A stretch of DNA of 40,284 nt from an uncultured Actinomycetes bacterium (GTDB lineage: Bacteria; Actinomycetota; Actinomycetes; Nanopelagicales; Nanopelagicaceae): NCBI GenBank assembly GCA_903916385.1, contig CAIWWH010000025.1:1-40284 (forward strand). Reading direction: 5' to 3'. The notes beneath the pieces are model-generated. The model did no database searches, was not told where the DNA came from, and saw only the letters and a program-made list of their open reading frames with translations. Below are positions 4,330 through 15,744 of the stretch, one piece after another. The stretch's first letter is position 1. Every line of letters begins with the position of its first letter. A program made the translations under genes and the position numbers.

Positions 4330-5229
4330 TCAGGCCCGGGGGTGGGCGTTATCGAAGGCCTTTTGCAGTCTGTCTGGCGAAACGTGGGTGTAAATCTGGG
4401 TCGTTGAGAGCGAAGAGTGTCCCAAAATCTCCTGAACGGTGCGTAAATCAGCTCCGCCCTCCAAAAGGTGGGTTGCCGCCGTGTGGCGCAGACCGTGCGG
4501 CCCCATCTTCGAACCAACCGCTGCCATCGCCTCATAGACCACACCGCGGACGGTCCGTTGATCAATCCGACTCCCCCGCGATCCCAAAAAGACGGCGCTA
4601 CCGGACTTCTCGCTGGCTAACGCTGGTCGCGCCTTGGCCAAGTAATTATTTAACGCCTGAACGGCCGGGACCCCCATTGGAACGACCCGCTCCTTGCTCC
4701 CCTTACCCATCACCTGCAGAGTGTTACGGGATTCGTCGATCGAACGAATGTCCAAACCGCAGAGCTCTGAGACGCGAATCCCTGTCGCGTACAGAACTTC
4801 GATCATTGCAAGATCGCGGATGGTTAAAGGAGTTGGCTCTTCATCGACGCGCATCTGCATGCTGGCCAACACAGTTTCGGTATCGGTTAAATCCAAAACT
4901 TCGGGGAGCGTCCTATGTGGTTTTGGAATCGCGAGTTCAGCACCAAGATCGCTCTTGAGCCACCCTTGGCTTGCCGCCCAATACGTGAATGCGCGAATCG
5001 AAACAATCCGCCTGGCCATCGTCGATCGCGCGACACCCGCACCTTGCAATTCAGCCAACCACGAGCGAACGTGAGTGAGCTCTAGTTGCGAGAACTCATC
5101 GATATGCAACTTCTCCAGATGCTTGAGAAAAGACTCGAGGTCACTTACATATCCCTTGATCGAGTTCTCGGCCAGATTGCGGACGAGAACAAGATGTTCC
5201 TCGTACTGCGCAATCAACTCTGAACTCAT
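4330..5229 (-). CDS. xerC: Tyrosine recombinase XerC
   Basis: 299 aa; ATGIRVSELCGLD, GKGSKERVVPMG, GPHGLRHTAATHLLEGGADLRTVQEILGHSSLSTTQIYTHV (R-HxxR-H/Y catalytic residues). Confidence 0.9.
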   Translation of the reverse strand: MSSELIAQYEEHLVLVRNLAENSIKGYVSDLESFLKHLEKLHIDEFSQLELTHVRSWLAELQGAGVARSTMARRIVSIRAFTYWAASQGWLKSDLGAELAIPKPHRTLPEVLDLTDTETVLASMQMRVDEEPTPLTIRDLAMIEVLYATGIRVSELCGLDIRSIDESRNTLQVMGKGSKERVVPMGVPAVQALNNYLAKARPALASEKSGSAVFLGSRGSRIDQRTVRGVVYEAMAAVGSKMGPHGLRHTAATHLLEGGADLRTVQEILGHSSLSTTQIYTHVSPDRLQKAFDNAHPRA

Positions 5230-5239
5230 GCCTTAAAGG

Positions 5240-6829
5240 CTACTCGGGTTTGCGTCCCTGTCTGAGTAGGCCATAGGTAACGGCATCTTCCAGCGCCATC
5301 GCGGATGCGGCAATGACATTCTCATGAACTCCGACAGTGGTCCACGATCCATCGCTATCGCTAGTTTCTACCAGAACGCGGGTAACAGCGCCGGTACCGA
5401 GGCGACCTTCGAGGATACGAACCTTGTAATCGGTGAGTTCTAGGCGCTCGAGTTCTGGGTAGAACTTCTGCAAGCCCGAACGCAGCGCAGTATCAATCGC
5501 GTTAACTGGGCCGTTTCCTGAACCTTCAGTAACGATGCTCTCACCATGAGCGGTGAGCGTGACCGTTGCCTTTGAGGTGACTCCCCCGTTGGCATCGCCA
5601 TCGACGGTGGTCTTCCAATCTTCGATCGTGAAGAAGTTGGCGCGCTTGCCCGCGATCTCTTCACGCAACAAGAGTTCGAAGGAGGCGTCTGCTGCTTCGA
5701 AGGTGAAGCCGCGAGACTCCATCTCTTTGACCCGCTCTACGACGCGAGCGACTACTTCTTTATCGCCACCGAGATCTATTCCAAGTTCCTTTGATTTCAA
5801 TTCGATAGAGGCGCGGCCGGCCATCTCTGAGACCAACATCCTCATATCGTTTCCAACACTTGCTGGATCTTCATGCTGATACATCGCAGGATCGACTTTG
5901 ATAGCGCTGGCGTGCAGTCCTGCCTTGTGGGCGAAGGCAGATGTCCCTACATATGGTTGACGAGCGCTAGGTGCCACATTGGTTACTTCGGCAACGGCAT
6001 GTGAAATTCTGAATGACTCTTGCAGGGCTCCTGCTGGGAGCACAGGCTTCTTCATCTTGAGTTCAAGATTTGCGATGATGCTTACTAGATCTGCGTTGCC
6101 AGTCCGCTCGCCGTATCCGTTGAGCGTTCCTTGCACGTGCGTAACTCCGGCATCAATAGCAGCAAGAGAGTTTGCGATCGCACATCCAGTGTCGTTGTGG
6201 CAATGGATGCCTAGGCGAGCAGATGATGCATGTAGGACCTCGTGCACCACATCCGTTAGTTCAGTGGGAAGCATGCCTCCGTTGGTATCGCAGAGCGCGA
6301 TGACGTCGGCGCCAGATTCTGCGGCAACTCGAACGACTTCTAAGGCATAAGCCTTATTGGAGCGGTAACCGTCGAAGAAGTGTTCGGCGTCAAGGAAGAC
6401 GCGTTGACCGCCTTCGCGGAGAAATTTAATCGAGCTGCGAATCATTTCGAGGTTCTCATCAAGGGTGGTCTTGAGAGCAAGCTCGACATGGCGATCATGA
6501 CTCTTTGCCACGAGAGTTACTGCGGGTGCGCCTGAATCTTGCAAGGCGCGCAGCAGTACATCATCGGCCGCCTGCACTCCTGGACGACGAGTTGCACCAA
6601 AGGCAACGAAGGTGGCGTTCTTGAGTTTTAACTCGGTCTGAGCCAACTTGAAGAACTCGGTGTCCTTTGGGTTTGCTCCCGGCCACCCACCTTCAATAAA
6701 TCCAACGCCCAGATCATCCAAGTGGCGTGCAATAGCCAACTTGTCATGCACCGAGAGGTTGAGCCCCTCTTGCTGCGCGCCATCGCGCAGAGTGGTGTCA
6801 TAGATATGAAATGCGTCAGAAACTGCCAT
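5240..6829 (-). CDS. cimA: Citramalate synthase
   Basis: 529 aa; IYDTTLRDGAQQEGLNLSVHDKLAIARHLDDLGVGFIEGGWPGANPKDTEFF is CimA-type rather than LeuA-type; HCHNDTGCAIANSLAAIDAG motif; C-terminal regulatory domain. Confidence 0.92.
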   Translation of the reverse strand: MAVSDAFHIYDTTLRDGAQQEGLNLSVHDKLAIARHLDDLGVGFIEGGWPGANPKDTEFFKLAQTELKLKNATFVAFGATRRPGVQAADDVLLRALQDSGAPAVTLVAKSHDRHVELALKTTLDENLEMIRSSIKFLREGGQRVFLDAEHFFDGYRSNKAYALEVVRVAAESGADVIALCDTNGGMLPTELTDVVHEVLHASSARLGIHCHNDTGCAIANSLAAIDAGVTHVQGTLNGYGERTGNADLVSIIANLELKMKKPVLPAGALQESFRISHAVAEVTNVAPSARQPYVGTSAFAHKAGLHASAIKVDPAMYQHEDPASVGNDMRMLVSEMAGRASIELKSKELGIDLGGDKEVVARVVERVKEMESRGFTFEAADASFELLLREEIAGKRANFFTIEDWKTTVDGDANGGVTSKATVTLTAHGESIVTEGSGNGPVNAIDTALRSGLQKFYPELERLELTDYKVRILEGRLGTGAVTRVLVETSDSDGSWTTVGVHENVIAASAMALEDAVTYGLLRQGRKPE

Positions 6830-12098: not shown

Positions 12099-13838
12099 TT
12101 ATAGCTCCTGAGAATCCCAGATAGGTGCCATTGACTTTGCTATAACGATGTCATCGTTCGAGGTGCCTGCAGCCACCATCGGCCAAACCATCGCGTCGCG
12201 ATGTACGCTGAAATCAACCACGACAGGGCGATCATTGATCGCCATCGCCTCGTTGATAACGCGATCCACATCTTCTTTACTCTCGCAACGCAAGCCAACG
12301 CAACCCATCGCTTCGGCGAGCTTTGCAAAATCGGGAATGCGCTTGGAGTGCAGATCAGTGTTGGAGTAGCGCTCGTTGTAGAACAGGGTCTGCCACTGGC
12401 GAACCATTCCGAGCGATTCATTGTTAATGATGGCTACCTTGATAGGAATATTGTTCAATGCGCAGGTAACTAGCTCTTGATTAGTCATCTGGAAGCATCC
12501 GTCGCCATCAATCGCCCATACAACAGCATCTGGGGCTCCGACCTTGGCGCCCATCGCGGCAGGAACAGCAAAGCCCATCGTGCCGAGTCCACCCGAGTTA
12601 ATCCAGGTGCGCGGCTTCTCGTAGTTAACAAATTGCGAAGACCACATCTGGTGCTGCCCGACGCCGGCAACATAAATTGCATCTGGACCGGCGATCTGAC
12701 CTAAACGTTGAATGACATATTGCGGCGAGACAGAGCCATCGGTTGGCTCGTCGAAGCCAAGTGGATACTTGATACGCCAGCTGTTGCATTGCGCCCACCA
12801 TTCGGTGAGATCAGGCTTTGCACTTTCAAACTTCTTCTTCAACTCAGGCAACAAGGCGCTGATGGTCGCCTTGAGATCGCCGATCAACGCGACATCGACG
12901 ATACGGTTCTTGCCGATTTCAGCGGGGTCGATATCCGCGTGGATAACTTTCGCGTTAGGTGCGAAAGAGGAGAGCTTGCCTGTCACGCGATCATCAAACC
13001 TGGCACCGAGGGTGATGAGCAGGTCGGCTTTCTGCAGCGCAGTAACGGCGGCAACAGTGCCGTGCATTCCGGGCATGCCGAGGTGTTGTGGGTGGCTATC
13101 AGGAAATGTGCCTAACGCCATCAAAGTTGTAACAACTGGAGCGCCAGTGAGCTCTGCAAGCTTCATCAGCTCTGCAGAGGCATTGGATTTGATTGCTCCA
13201 CCGCCAACGTAGAGCACAGGGCTCTTTGAGTCCGCAATAAGCGCTACCGCATCGCGAACCGACTCAGCGGTCGGATCCATGATCGGGTTGTACCCCGGCA
13301 GCGAGAGCGATGATGGCCATTCGAAATCAGTCATCTTGGTCAGGGCATCCTTGGCAATGTCGACCAGAACTGCGCCAGGACGTCCGGTGCCTGCAATATG
13401 GAAGGCCTCAGCGATCGCGCGTGGAATGTCGCGTGGATCTGTGATTAGGAAGTTGTGTTTAGTAACGGGCATCGTTATGCCGCGGATATCAGCCTCTTGG
13501 AAGGCGTCAGTGCCGATCGCAGCCGAAGCGACCTGACCAGTAATTGCAACGATTGGGACGGAGTCCATCTGCGCATCGGCGAGCGGAGTCACTAAGTTGG
13601 TGGCGCCAGGTCCGGAAGTCGCAATACAAACTCCTACGCGTCCAGTCGCTTGGGCATAGCCCGTGGCGGCGTGGCCAGCGCCCTGCTCGTGGCGAACCAA
13701 GATATGGCGAATGGAGCTATCAAAGATCGGGTCGTAAGCAGGAAGGATTGCGCCGCCAGGGATTCCGAACATGACATCGACTCCAGCAGACTCAAGTGAA
13801 TTCACGAGTGACTGCGCTCCGGTGATTTGTGCTGACAT
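12099..13838 (-). CDS. ilvB: Acetolactate synthase large (catalytic) subunit
   Basis: [37 protein letters not shown]..., ThDP-binding [15 protein letters not shown]...N. Start placed at 13838 (AAGGAG, 6-nt spacing); the ORF-track start 13928 lies inside the leader terminator. Confidence 0.95.
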
Positions 13839-13895: not shown

Positions 13896-13917
13896 CCCCT
13901 CAGTTTCCACTGAGGGG
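13896..13917 (-). terminator. Intrinsic terminator of the ilvB leader (attenuator)
   Basis: Minus strand: CCCCTCAGT-GGAA-ACTGAGGGG (9-bp perfect stem, GGAA GNRA-type loop) followed by TTTCGTATTT. Confidence 0.8.
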
Positions 13918-13919
13918 TA

Positions 13920-13950
13920 GCGCACCATCTAGTCAGACTAGATCGCGCGC
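13920..13950 (-). promoter_or_regulatory. Leader hairpin just upstream of the attenuator terminator
   Basis: Minus strand GCGCGCGATCTAGT-CTG-ACTAGATGGTGCGC; 7-bp perfect inner stem plus a mostly paired GCGC outer stem. Confidence 0.65.
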
Positions 13951-13976
13951 TCTCGAATCACCACTGATGATGTCAT
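13938..13976 (-). CDS. Branched-chain amino-acid leader peptide (ilvB leader)
   Basis: ATG ACA TCA TCA GTG GTG ATT CGA GAG CGC GCG ATC TAG = MTSSVVIRERAI*; Val-Val-Ile plus Ile, just before the hairpins and terminator. Confidence 0.75.
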   Translation of the reverse strand: MTSSVVIRERAI

Positions 13977-13982
13977 GGTGCA

Positions 13983-14011
13983 ATTCTCGCTGGTCGAGAG
14001 AACTCCGTCAA
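13983..14011 (-). promoter_or_regulatory. Putative promoter of the ilvBNC-serA-leuB-ilvE-cimA operon
   Basis: TTGACG (14011-14006), 17-bp spacer, GAGAAT (13988-13983); predicted start at or next to the A of the leader-peptide ATG (13976). Confidence 0.6.
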
Positions 14012-14058: not shown

Positions 14059-15744
14059 TTAACTACAGACAGCGCCCTGTGAGGCGGAGCCAACGACCTT
14101 TGCGTACTTGGCCAGGACCCCACGGCGGAACTTATGGGGTACGGGAACGAAGTCCTTACGACGCTTTTCGAGTTCGGCTGGGTCGACCTGAAGATCCAAA
14201 GTGCGCTTGGCAATGTCAATGCGGATTAAGTCGCCATCCTTAATGAAGGCAATGGGTCCGCCGTCAACGGCCTCTGGCGAAACGTGACCTACGCAGAGTC
14301 CGGTACTTCCCCCAGAGAAACGGCCATCAGTTAGAAGAAGTGTGGACTTACCAAGTCCAGCACCTTTGATTGCGCCAGTGATCATTAACATCTCGCGCAT
14401 ACCCGGGCCACCCTTAGGGCCTTCGTAGCGGATGACGACAACATCGCCGGCTTTGATGGCTCCATTTTCCAGGGCGGTCATCGCAGCCTGTTCGCGCTCG
14501 AAGACGCGGGCCGGTCCTTCAAAGAAATCGACCCCCACGCCAGCAGTTTTACAAACTGCGCCATCGGTCGCCAAGGTGCCGTGCAAGATGGTGATTCCTC
14601 CACCAGCTGAAAGTGGGTTCTTAATAGAGTGCAGAACTTCGCCATCTGGATCTAACGGAGTGAGCTCTGCCAAATTCTCGGCCATGGTCTTGCCAGTGAC
14701 TGTTAAGCAATCGCCGTGCAAGAAACCGGCATCAAGGAGTGCTCGGAGCACGACTGGAATACCACCAACGCGATCGATATCGGTCATAACAAATTTTCCG
14801 AATGGCTTGAGGTCACCGAGTAGTGGGGTGCGCTCGCTGATGCGTTGGAAATCCGCCAGGTCAAGTTCAACCTCGGCTTCGTTTGCAATCGCCAACAAGT
14901 GGAGCACCGCGTTGGTCGAACCACCTAGTGCCATGACTACCGTGATGGCGTTTTCAAATGCTTTCTTGGTCAGGATGTCGCGCGTAGTAATTCCTAAGCG
15001 AATCAACTCGACGACTGCGGCGCCCGCTTTAACGGCGTAATCGTCGCGTCGACGATCAACAGATGGAGGAGATGCAGATCCAGGAAGTGAAAGTCCGAGC
15101 GCCTCACCAACTGCAGCCATCGTATTTGCGGTGTACATACCGCCACAAGCACCTTCACCTGGACAGATAGCGCGCTCAATTTCATCGACCTTCTCTTGGG
15201 TGATCAGCCCACGCGCACATGCGCCCACTGCCTCAAAGGCATCGATGATGGTGACATCTTTCCCGTCAACCTGACCTGCAAGAGTCGAACCTGCATATAC
15301 AAAGACACTCGCGACGTCGATACGCGCGGCGGCCATCATCATGCCGGGTAAGGATTTATCGCAACCTGCAAAGGTCACCATTCCGTCGAGACGTTCTGCT
15401 TGCATAACAGTTTCGACAGAGTCGGCGATGACTTCACGAGATACCAGCGAGAAATGCATACCTTCATGGCCCATTGAAATTCCATCAGAGACGGAGATAG
15501 TTCCAAATTGCATTGGGAATCCACCTGCGTCAATGACTCCCTTGCGCGAAGCTTTGGCGAGGCGATCTAGAGAGAGATTGCAGGGTGTAATTTCATTCCA
15601 AGAGGAGGCGATACCGATCTGCGGCTTCACCCAGTCGTCATCGGTCATACCGACGGCGCGTAACATTCCACGCGCTGGCGCACGCTCTAAGCCATCAGTA
15701 ACTAAACCCGATCGCGGCTTCATGGGATTCTTTGGCTCGGTCAT
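14059..15744 (-). CDS. ilvD: Dihydroxy-acid dehydratase
   Basis: 561 aa; [81 protein letters not shown]. Confidence 0.97.

Follow-up and report, generated by a model that had tools for sequence, protein, structure and literature searches.

In the window analysed here, a 40,284-nt stretch from an uncultured Nanopelagicaceae bacterium (contig CAIWWH010000025.1), the minus-strand leader region that separates ilvD (stop at 14059) from ilvB probably encodes an ilvB attenuator of the actinobacterial type, ribosome-mediated and acting on transcription, with a leaderless start and with a hairpin, P1, that would exclude the terminator hairpin, T, by abutment. An attenuator of this kind is already known in actinobacteria, and the new element of the description is class-wide abutment without shared sequence. 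Branched-chain leader-peptide attenuation of an ilv operon, the central proposal of an earlier note on this DNA, is supported by the comparative evidence set out below and by studied relatives (PMC8079986, PMC11857589, PMC13236596).

The seven-gene set named in that note, ilvBNC-serA-leuB-ilvE-cimA, was borne out, with each gene identified on the minus strand of the window. The acetolactate synthase large subunit gene ilvB (13838-12099) matched NF005860 with 1077.7 bits, whilst family matches identified ilvN (acetolactate synthase small subunit, 12098-11586), ilvC (ketol-acid reductoisomerase, 11568-10534), serA (phosphoglycerate dehydrogenase, 10568-8949), leuB (3-isopropylmalate dehydrogenase, 8949-7915), ilvE (branched-chain aminotransferase, 7914-6829) and cimA (citramalate synthase, 6829-5240). 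The true ilvB ATG is at 13838, the mechanical open reading frame (ORF) start at 13928 being an upstream extension; the serA family match runs from residue 15, and its true start is probably just 3' of ilvC. A XerC-like recombinase gene lies on the same strand at 4330-5240, and because it starts approximately 10 nt past the cimA stop codon, the attenuated transcript may exceed seven genes.

Re-reading the leader on the minus strand reproduced the previously reported order and coordinates of its elements. A -35 element, TTGACG (14011-14006), is separated by 17 nt from a -10 element, GAGAAT (13988-13983), and 6 nt further lies the ATG (13976) of a predicted leaderless leader peptide ORF, MTSSVVIRERAI (13976-13938, including the TAG stop codon at 13940-13938). 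Its regulatory codons, GTG GTG ATT (Val-Val-Ile, 13964-13956), sit 13 to 7 nt 5' of the base of P1 (13951-13919; AGCGCGC-g-ATCTAGT-ctg-ACTAGAT-g-GTGCGCT), and the leader stop codon falls inside the P1 5' arm, 11 nt in. P1 had been recognized earlier as a hairpin containing the peptide stop codon, which stands, but its length of 31 nt (13920-13950) is corrected to 33 nt, one base pair longer. Likewise, the GGAA-loop terminator hairpin before ilvB was confirmed, with a stem of 10 bp rather than 9 bp (T, 13918-13895; ACCCCTCAGT-GGAA-ACTGAGGGGT). P1 and T have no nucleotides in common and no spacer between them. A U-rich tail, TTCGTATTTC (13894-13885), and the ilvB Shine-Dalgarno sequence AAGGAG (13850-13845) were read from the sequence.

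The promoter match alone was at chance level, with two found vs 2.3 expected from shuffles, and relatives were therefore collected. The upstream regions of ilvB were gathered from approximately 100 genomes of the family Nanopelagicaceae and approximately 80 other Actinomycetes, the latter including an order-level set around an Allokutzneria genome (taken as Mycobacteriales); the nearest named relatives of the window are Nanopelagicaceae and other uncultured actinobacteria. Of approximately 175 leaders compared, about 95 Nanopelagicaceae-type and 80 from other Actinomycetes shared the layout, and nearly all presented the same order of TTGAC, a -10-like hexamer, 6 nt, ATG or GTG, Val/Ile/Leu codons, P1, T and ilvB. 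With this many leaders sharing it, the attenuator layout is beyond chance. Like the window, in which MTSSVVIRERAI provides a short ORF with pathway amino acid codons between promoter and structural gene, and in which the 10-bp hairpin with its U-rich tail provides an intrinsic terminator between that ORF and the first structural gene, all clades carried homologous leader ORFs. These vary in length in frame, retain their Val/Ile/Leu codons through synonymous changes and conserve the spacing of those codons to P1. Conservation of peptide and terminator in relatives, on which the earlier note had made its reading depend, was thus found for both, the terminator arms co-evolving, whilst the search for Rfam ilv leader families that it had proposed returned no covariance model match at the gathering threshold and nothing relevant at E<=10. 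One clade (g6; L041, L042, L130, L138 and L139) has a leader, MLSRISVRLERAS, from which the run of adjacent branched-chain codons has been lost, and its terminator sequence is also divergent (CCCTCGG...CCGGGGGG).

Since it is conserved across relatives, we take the promoter as real. Among 65 non-redundant Nanopelagicaceae-type leaders, TTGAC lies 35, 36 or 37 nt from the start codon, with T at -7 in 98% and A at -11 in 86%; overall, the distance from -35 to start is fixed at 35-38 nt and the start codon is ATG or GTG. The spacing from T to ilvB, in contrast, is highly variable in Nanopelagicaceae-type leaders (approximately 30-118 nt). With the first distance fixed and the second variable, the start codon is locked to the promoter, which is a leaderless signature. 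Across 65 + 38 + 22 leaders, the -10 element ends approximately 6 nt before the start, which leaves no room for a Shine-Dalgarno sequence. This promoter geometry, from which the transcription start is deduced, supports a leaderless leader transcript, and the leaderless leader peptide proposed earlier agrees with it and with studied relatives (PMC8079986, PMC11857589). GGAGAAT was also considered as a Shine-Dalgarno sequence instead of a -10 element and was rejected, given that conservation falls on A(-11) and T(-7) and that variants such as GAAACT and GATAAT are not Shine-Dalgarno-like; strings of Shine-Dalgarno type precede the leader start in 26 of the 65 Nanopelagicaceae-type leaders.

As MAFFT and RNAalifold applied to whole leaders misaligned the variable P1 loops, pairings were instead evaluated with a swap test, in which the duplex energy of a leader's own two segments was compared with that of segments exchanged between species, for every segment pair. 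The arms of P1 fitted their own partner better than exchanged ones in the Nanopelagicaceae-type leaders (n = 49, p=2e-5) and in the others (n = 51, p=1.5e-6), as did the arms of T (p=3e-12 and 3e-10, respectively). No third co-evolving pair was detected in either set: leader with T 3' arm, P1 loop with T 3' arm and P1 3' arm with T 5' arm were not significant, and no segment pairing with the tail stood out. The folding and covariance check across relatives suggested in the earlier note therefore leaves P1 and T alone as co-evolving, in keeping with its remark that the two hairpins are adjacent and do not share a pairing; no conserved hairpin takes sequence from T. In L191 the P1 stem is rewritten, with TAGCTCATCAAC/GTTGATGAGCTA replacing AGCGCG..., whilst pairing and abutment to T are kept, a clear natural compensatory case.

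Several further pairings were tried and set aside. Leader TCAGTGG could pair with the T 3' arm in the window; the pairing is absent in several clades and does not co-evolve. Constrained folds paired the P1 3' arm to the tail 3' of T, again without co-evolution, and GCACCAT, 5' of the leader ATG, is perfectly complementary to ATGGTGC in P1 only in the window and would lie outside a leaderless transcript. An anti-antiterminator formed by the leader coding region and the P1 5' arm was not conserved overall and was predicted in one clade, for example in L157. In that clade (g16; L156-L165 and other leaders), an early leader segment, such as CACGCGC in L157, shows complementarity to the P1 5' arm and resembles the anti-antiterminator of C. 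glutamicum, but it is not conserved in other clades.

The position of P1 relative to T was measured in three sets of non-redundant leaders by seeking the best upstream helix with a free end. The spacer between them was -2 to +2 nt in 86% (n = 44), 90% (n = 51) and 96% (n = 26) of leaders, compared with 31%, 28% and 26%, respectively, in shuffled sequence, and the window, in which P1 directly adjoins the terminator base with a spacer of 0 nt, conforms to this arrangement. Overlap was rare, with at least 3 nt common to P1 and T in 1/96, 2/53 and 0/27 leaders (3/176), and the window has no boundary trinucleotide common to both hairpins. As nearly all leaders have a spacer of -2 to +2 nt, and given the assignment of the C. 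glutamicum hairpins, the adjacency of P1 and T appears to be a class design, not a gap. Ribosome spacing is similarly regular: across the class, most leaders place the last branched-chain codon 6-8 nt 5' of the P1 base and the first at a distance of 13-17 nt or more, and the stop codon is at the P1 base or approximately 11 nt inside its 5' arm. In constrained folds, the probability of P1 was 0.87-0.98 with a ribosome at the first branched-chain codon, 0.02-0.08 at the last and 0 at the stop codon. The mean probability of T was 0.93-0.98 in all four states folded, namely no ribosome or a ribosome on the first branched-chain codon, the last one or the stop, and no competitor of T was found. Anatomy, conservation, fixed spacings and co-evolution of P1 and T only are thereby directly established.

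We infer where transcription starts, that the ribosome stalls and that the abutting P1 excludes T. Transcription would start at the 13976 ATG or within one or two nucleotides of it, and a ribosome would initiate on the leaderless mRNA and read the leader peptide. Under a shortage of Val- or Ile-tRNA it would wait at the Val-Val-Ile codons, and, positioned on the first Val codon, it would end just 5' of the P1 base and allow P1 to form. Flush with T, P1 would stop the T base from closing within the exit channel of RNA polymerase, and the enzyme would continue into ilvBNC-serA-leuB-ilvE-cimA. With ample Val and Ile, the ribosome would instead reach the stop codon within the 5' arm of P1, P1 would be lost, T would fold and transcription would end. 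Most likely, then, P1 is the antiterminator, a role suggested by its occupying the same position as the antiterminator of C. glutamicum, and steric exclusion is the likelier route because P1 and T have nothing in common in the window and share at least 3 nt in so few leaders. As T folds in all ribosome states, such that there is no thermodynamic exclusion, the abutment step depends on a steric or kinetic argument. Two considerations count against the scheme. P1 alone would form without translation, predicting high expression, yet an ATG-to-AGG change of the C. glutamicum leader start codon lowered expression by 80% (PMC11857589). P1 is also removed by a ribosome at the last branched-chain codon, so that stalling confined to the Ile codon would not be sensed through P1. 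Extended to the whole class Actinomycetes, the proposal that a flush hairpin prevents terminator closure in the exit channel, that the ribosome leaves or removes this hairpin and that no sequence-sharing antiterminator operates is put forward tentatively, as somewhat less likely to hold than to fail.

The closest studied counterpart is C. glutamicum ilvBNC, which has a three-hairpin 'fast attenuator' (PMC11857589) and an ilvB-II motif (PMC10272879). A Val/Ile/Leu-rich leader peptide begins within a nucleotide of +1, as is predicted for the window, the C. glutamicum +1 being a single nucleotide away from the start codon of its leader. As in the window, a hairpin directly precedes the terminator; that hairpin was assigned as antiterminator with mutational support, and a Val-to-Ala change in the leader abolished the response (PMC11857589). 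By our derivation from coordinates in the same paper, 16 nt separate its first Val codon from the hairpin and its stop is 11 nt inside, compared with 13 and 11 nt in the window. The bases of its antiterminator (36-78) and terminator (76-113) adjoin, and their overlap is a GCC trinucleotide only (PMC11857589), whereas P1 and T of the window share 0 nt. Further differences are that no conserved leader hairpin competes with P1 here and that no conserved pairing joins the terminator 3' arm to the P1 loop, in contrast to C. glutamicum and the ilvB-II motif.

Leaders of Streptomyces similarly combine a leaderless leader peptide with hairpins and a U-rich intrinsic terminator 5' of ilvB, and P1-T abutment is present in Streptomyces-type leaders (L072, L078, L100 and others), although peptide and terminator sequences differ from those of the window and P1 loops are longer in Streptomyces. 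The IlvL peptide of S. lividans, MRTRILVLGKRVG, is transcribed leaderless (PMC8079986). A Streptomyces ilvB leader candidate has been described in PMC1262725, in which leader peptides and terminators are present and the mode of regulation is called unclear; as cited there, changes to the ilvB leader codons of S. coelicolor were reported to be without effect, which counts against the reading of the window given here. The M. tuberculosis ilvB1NC leader (166 nt) is comparable as described in the literature: it has branched-chain codons (LVVI) in a short ORF and an intrinsic terminator, LVVI is needed for induction, its replacement by AAAA gave low, unresponsive expression, and in the proposed model a ribosome that has reached the stop covers the antiterminator (PMC13236596). 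Mycobacterial polycysteine short ORFs (Canestrari et al. 2020, as cited in PMC13236596) are likewise leaderless regulatory short ORFs that sense an amino acid, but according to that citing account they sense cysteine and are described as attenuation at the level of translation, not transcription termination.

Alternative hairpins that share sequence are the textbook design of trp, his and ilv leaders, and a classical attenuator of this type, in which a stalled ribosome favours a third hairpin (2:3) sharing T sequence and P1 serves as the 1:2 protector or a pause hairpin, is one competitor. It is also encouraged by the similarity of leader TCAGTGG to the T 5' arm in the window and by the proposal in the ilvB-II paper that the terminator right arm pairs with the P1 loop (PMC10272879). 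Neither feature survived comparison, as the TCAG leader motif is missing from clades such as L043/L144/L150/L170 that keep the T arm, and P1 and T alone co-evolve in both leader sets; with T at a probability above 0.9 throughout and facing no competitor in constrained folds, a classical antiterminator capturing T sequence is not supported by the leaders compared, and we regard this design as improbable. A related explanation makes P1 a pause hairpin only, holding polymerase until a ribosome loads on the leaderless 5' end, with ribosome-polymerase coupling or another factor deciding readthrough. The placement of P1, which would halt polymerase over the T 5' arm, its lack of thermodynamic exclusion of T and the suggestion that the first C. 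glutamicum hairpin is a pausing element (PMC11857589) all fit, yet a pause hairpin does not require the fixed spacing to T that prevails class-wide, nor a stop codon always positioned so that the finishing ribosome removes P1. Pausing as the sole role is consequently judged unlikely, if slightly less so than the classical design, and exclusion of T by an abutting P1 is preferred to both.

Control might also lie upstream of the transcript. A palindrome, TGRGAY-N4-RTCYCA, usually occurs 4 nt 5' of the ilvB -35 element and is near-perfect in most relatives, scoring at least 11/12 in 75 of 92 vs 0.4% in shuffles, with a GC-richer form, TGGGAC-N4-GTCCCA, in part of the other Actinomycetes; the leaders concerned, from within and beyond the family, are numbered L003-L053, L112-L171 and L054-L111. 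At this consensus position the window carries a degenerate copy, TGAGAT-GGGT-CGTGTT (14031-14016, minus strand), whose right half is lost, whilst a pattern search of its own genome located an intact copy, TGAGACCAACTTCTCA (14052-14037, minus strand), approximately 21 nt further upstream. In the few genomes scanned, the palindrome was found outside genes at ilvB alone, the other exact matches examined being inside genes. NdgR/LtbR was considered as the palindrome's protein and rejected, as the published motif does not match, and a literature search for the palindrome found nothing. We regard it as an additional conserved element and a putative operator. That a DNA-binding protein at this site is the main control, with leader peptide and hairpins minor, would accord with its conservation and with the S. 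coelicolor codon changes cited in PMC1262725. Such an arrangement is nevertheless very improbable: conservation of the leader, P1 and T extends over the class and the hairpin arms co-evolve, swapping leader codons in C. glutamicum and M. tuberculosis did away with regulation, and the window has an intact attenuator next to a degenerate near copy.

Attenuation through the leader peptide, P1 and T accordingly remains the favoured reading. Conserved in the class geometry are the leaderless start, the 6-17 nt that separate the regulatory codons from P1, and the placement of P1 flush with the terminator, and through the P1-terminator distance the long-standing doubt over the mode of regulation expressed in PMC1262725 becomes experimentally simple to address. 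On this reading, the known actinobacterial ilvB attenuator would extend to freshwater actinobacteria with small genomes.
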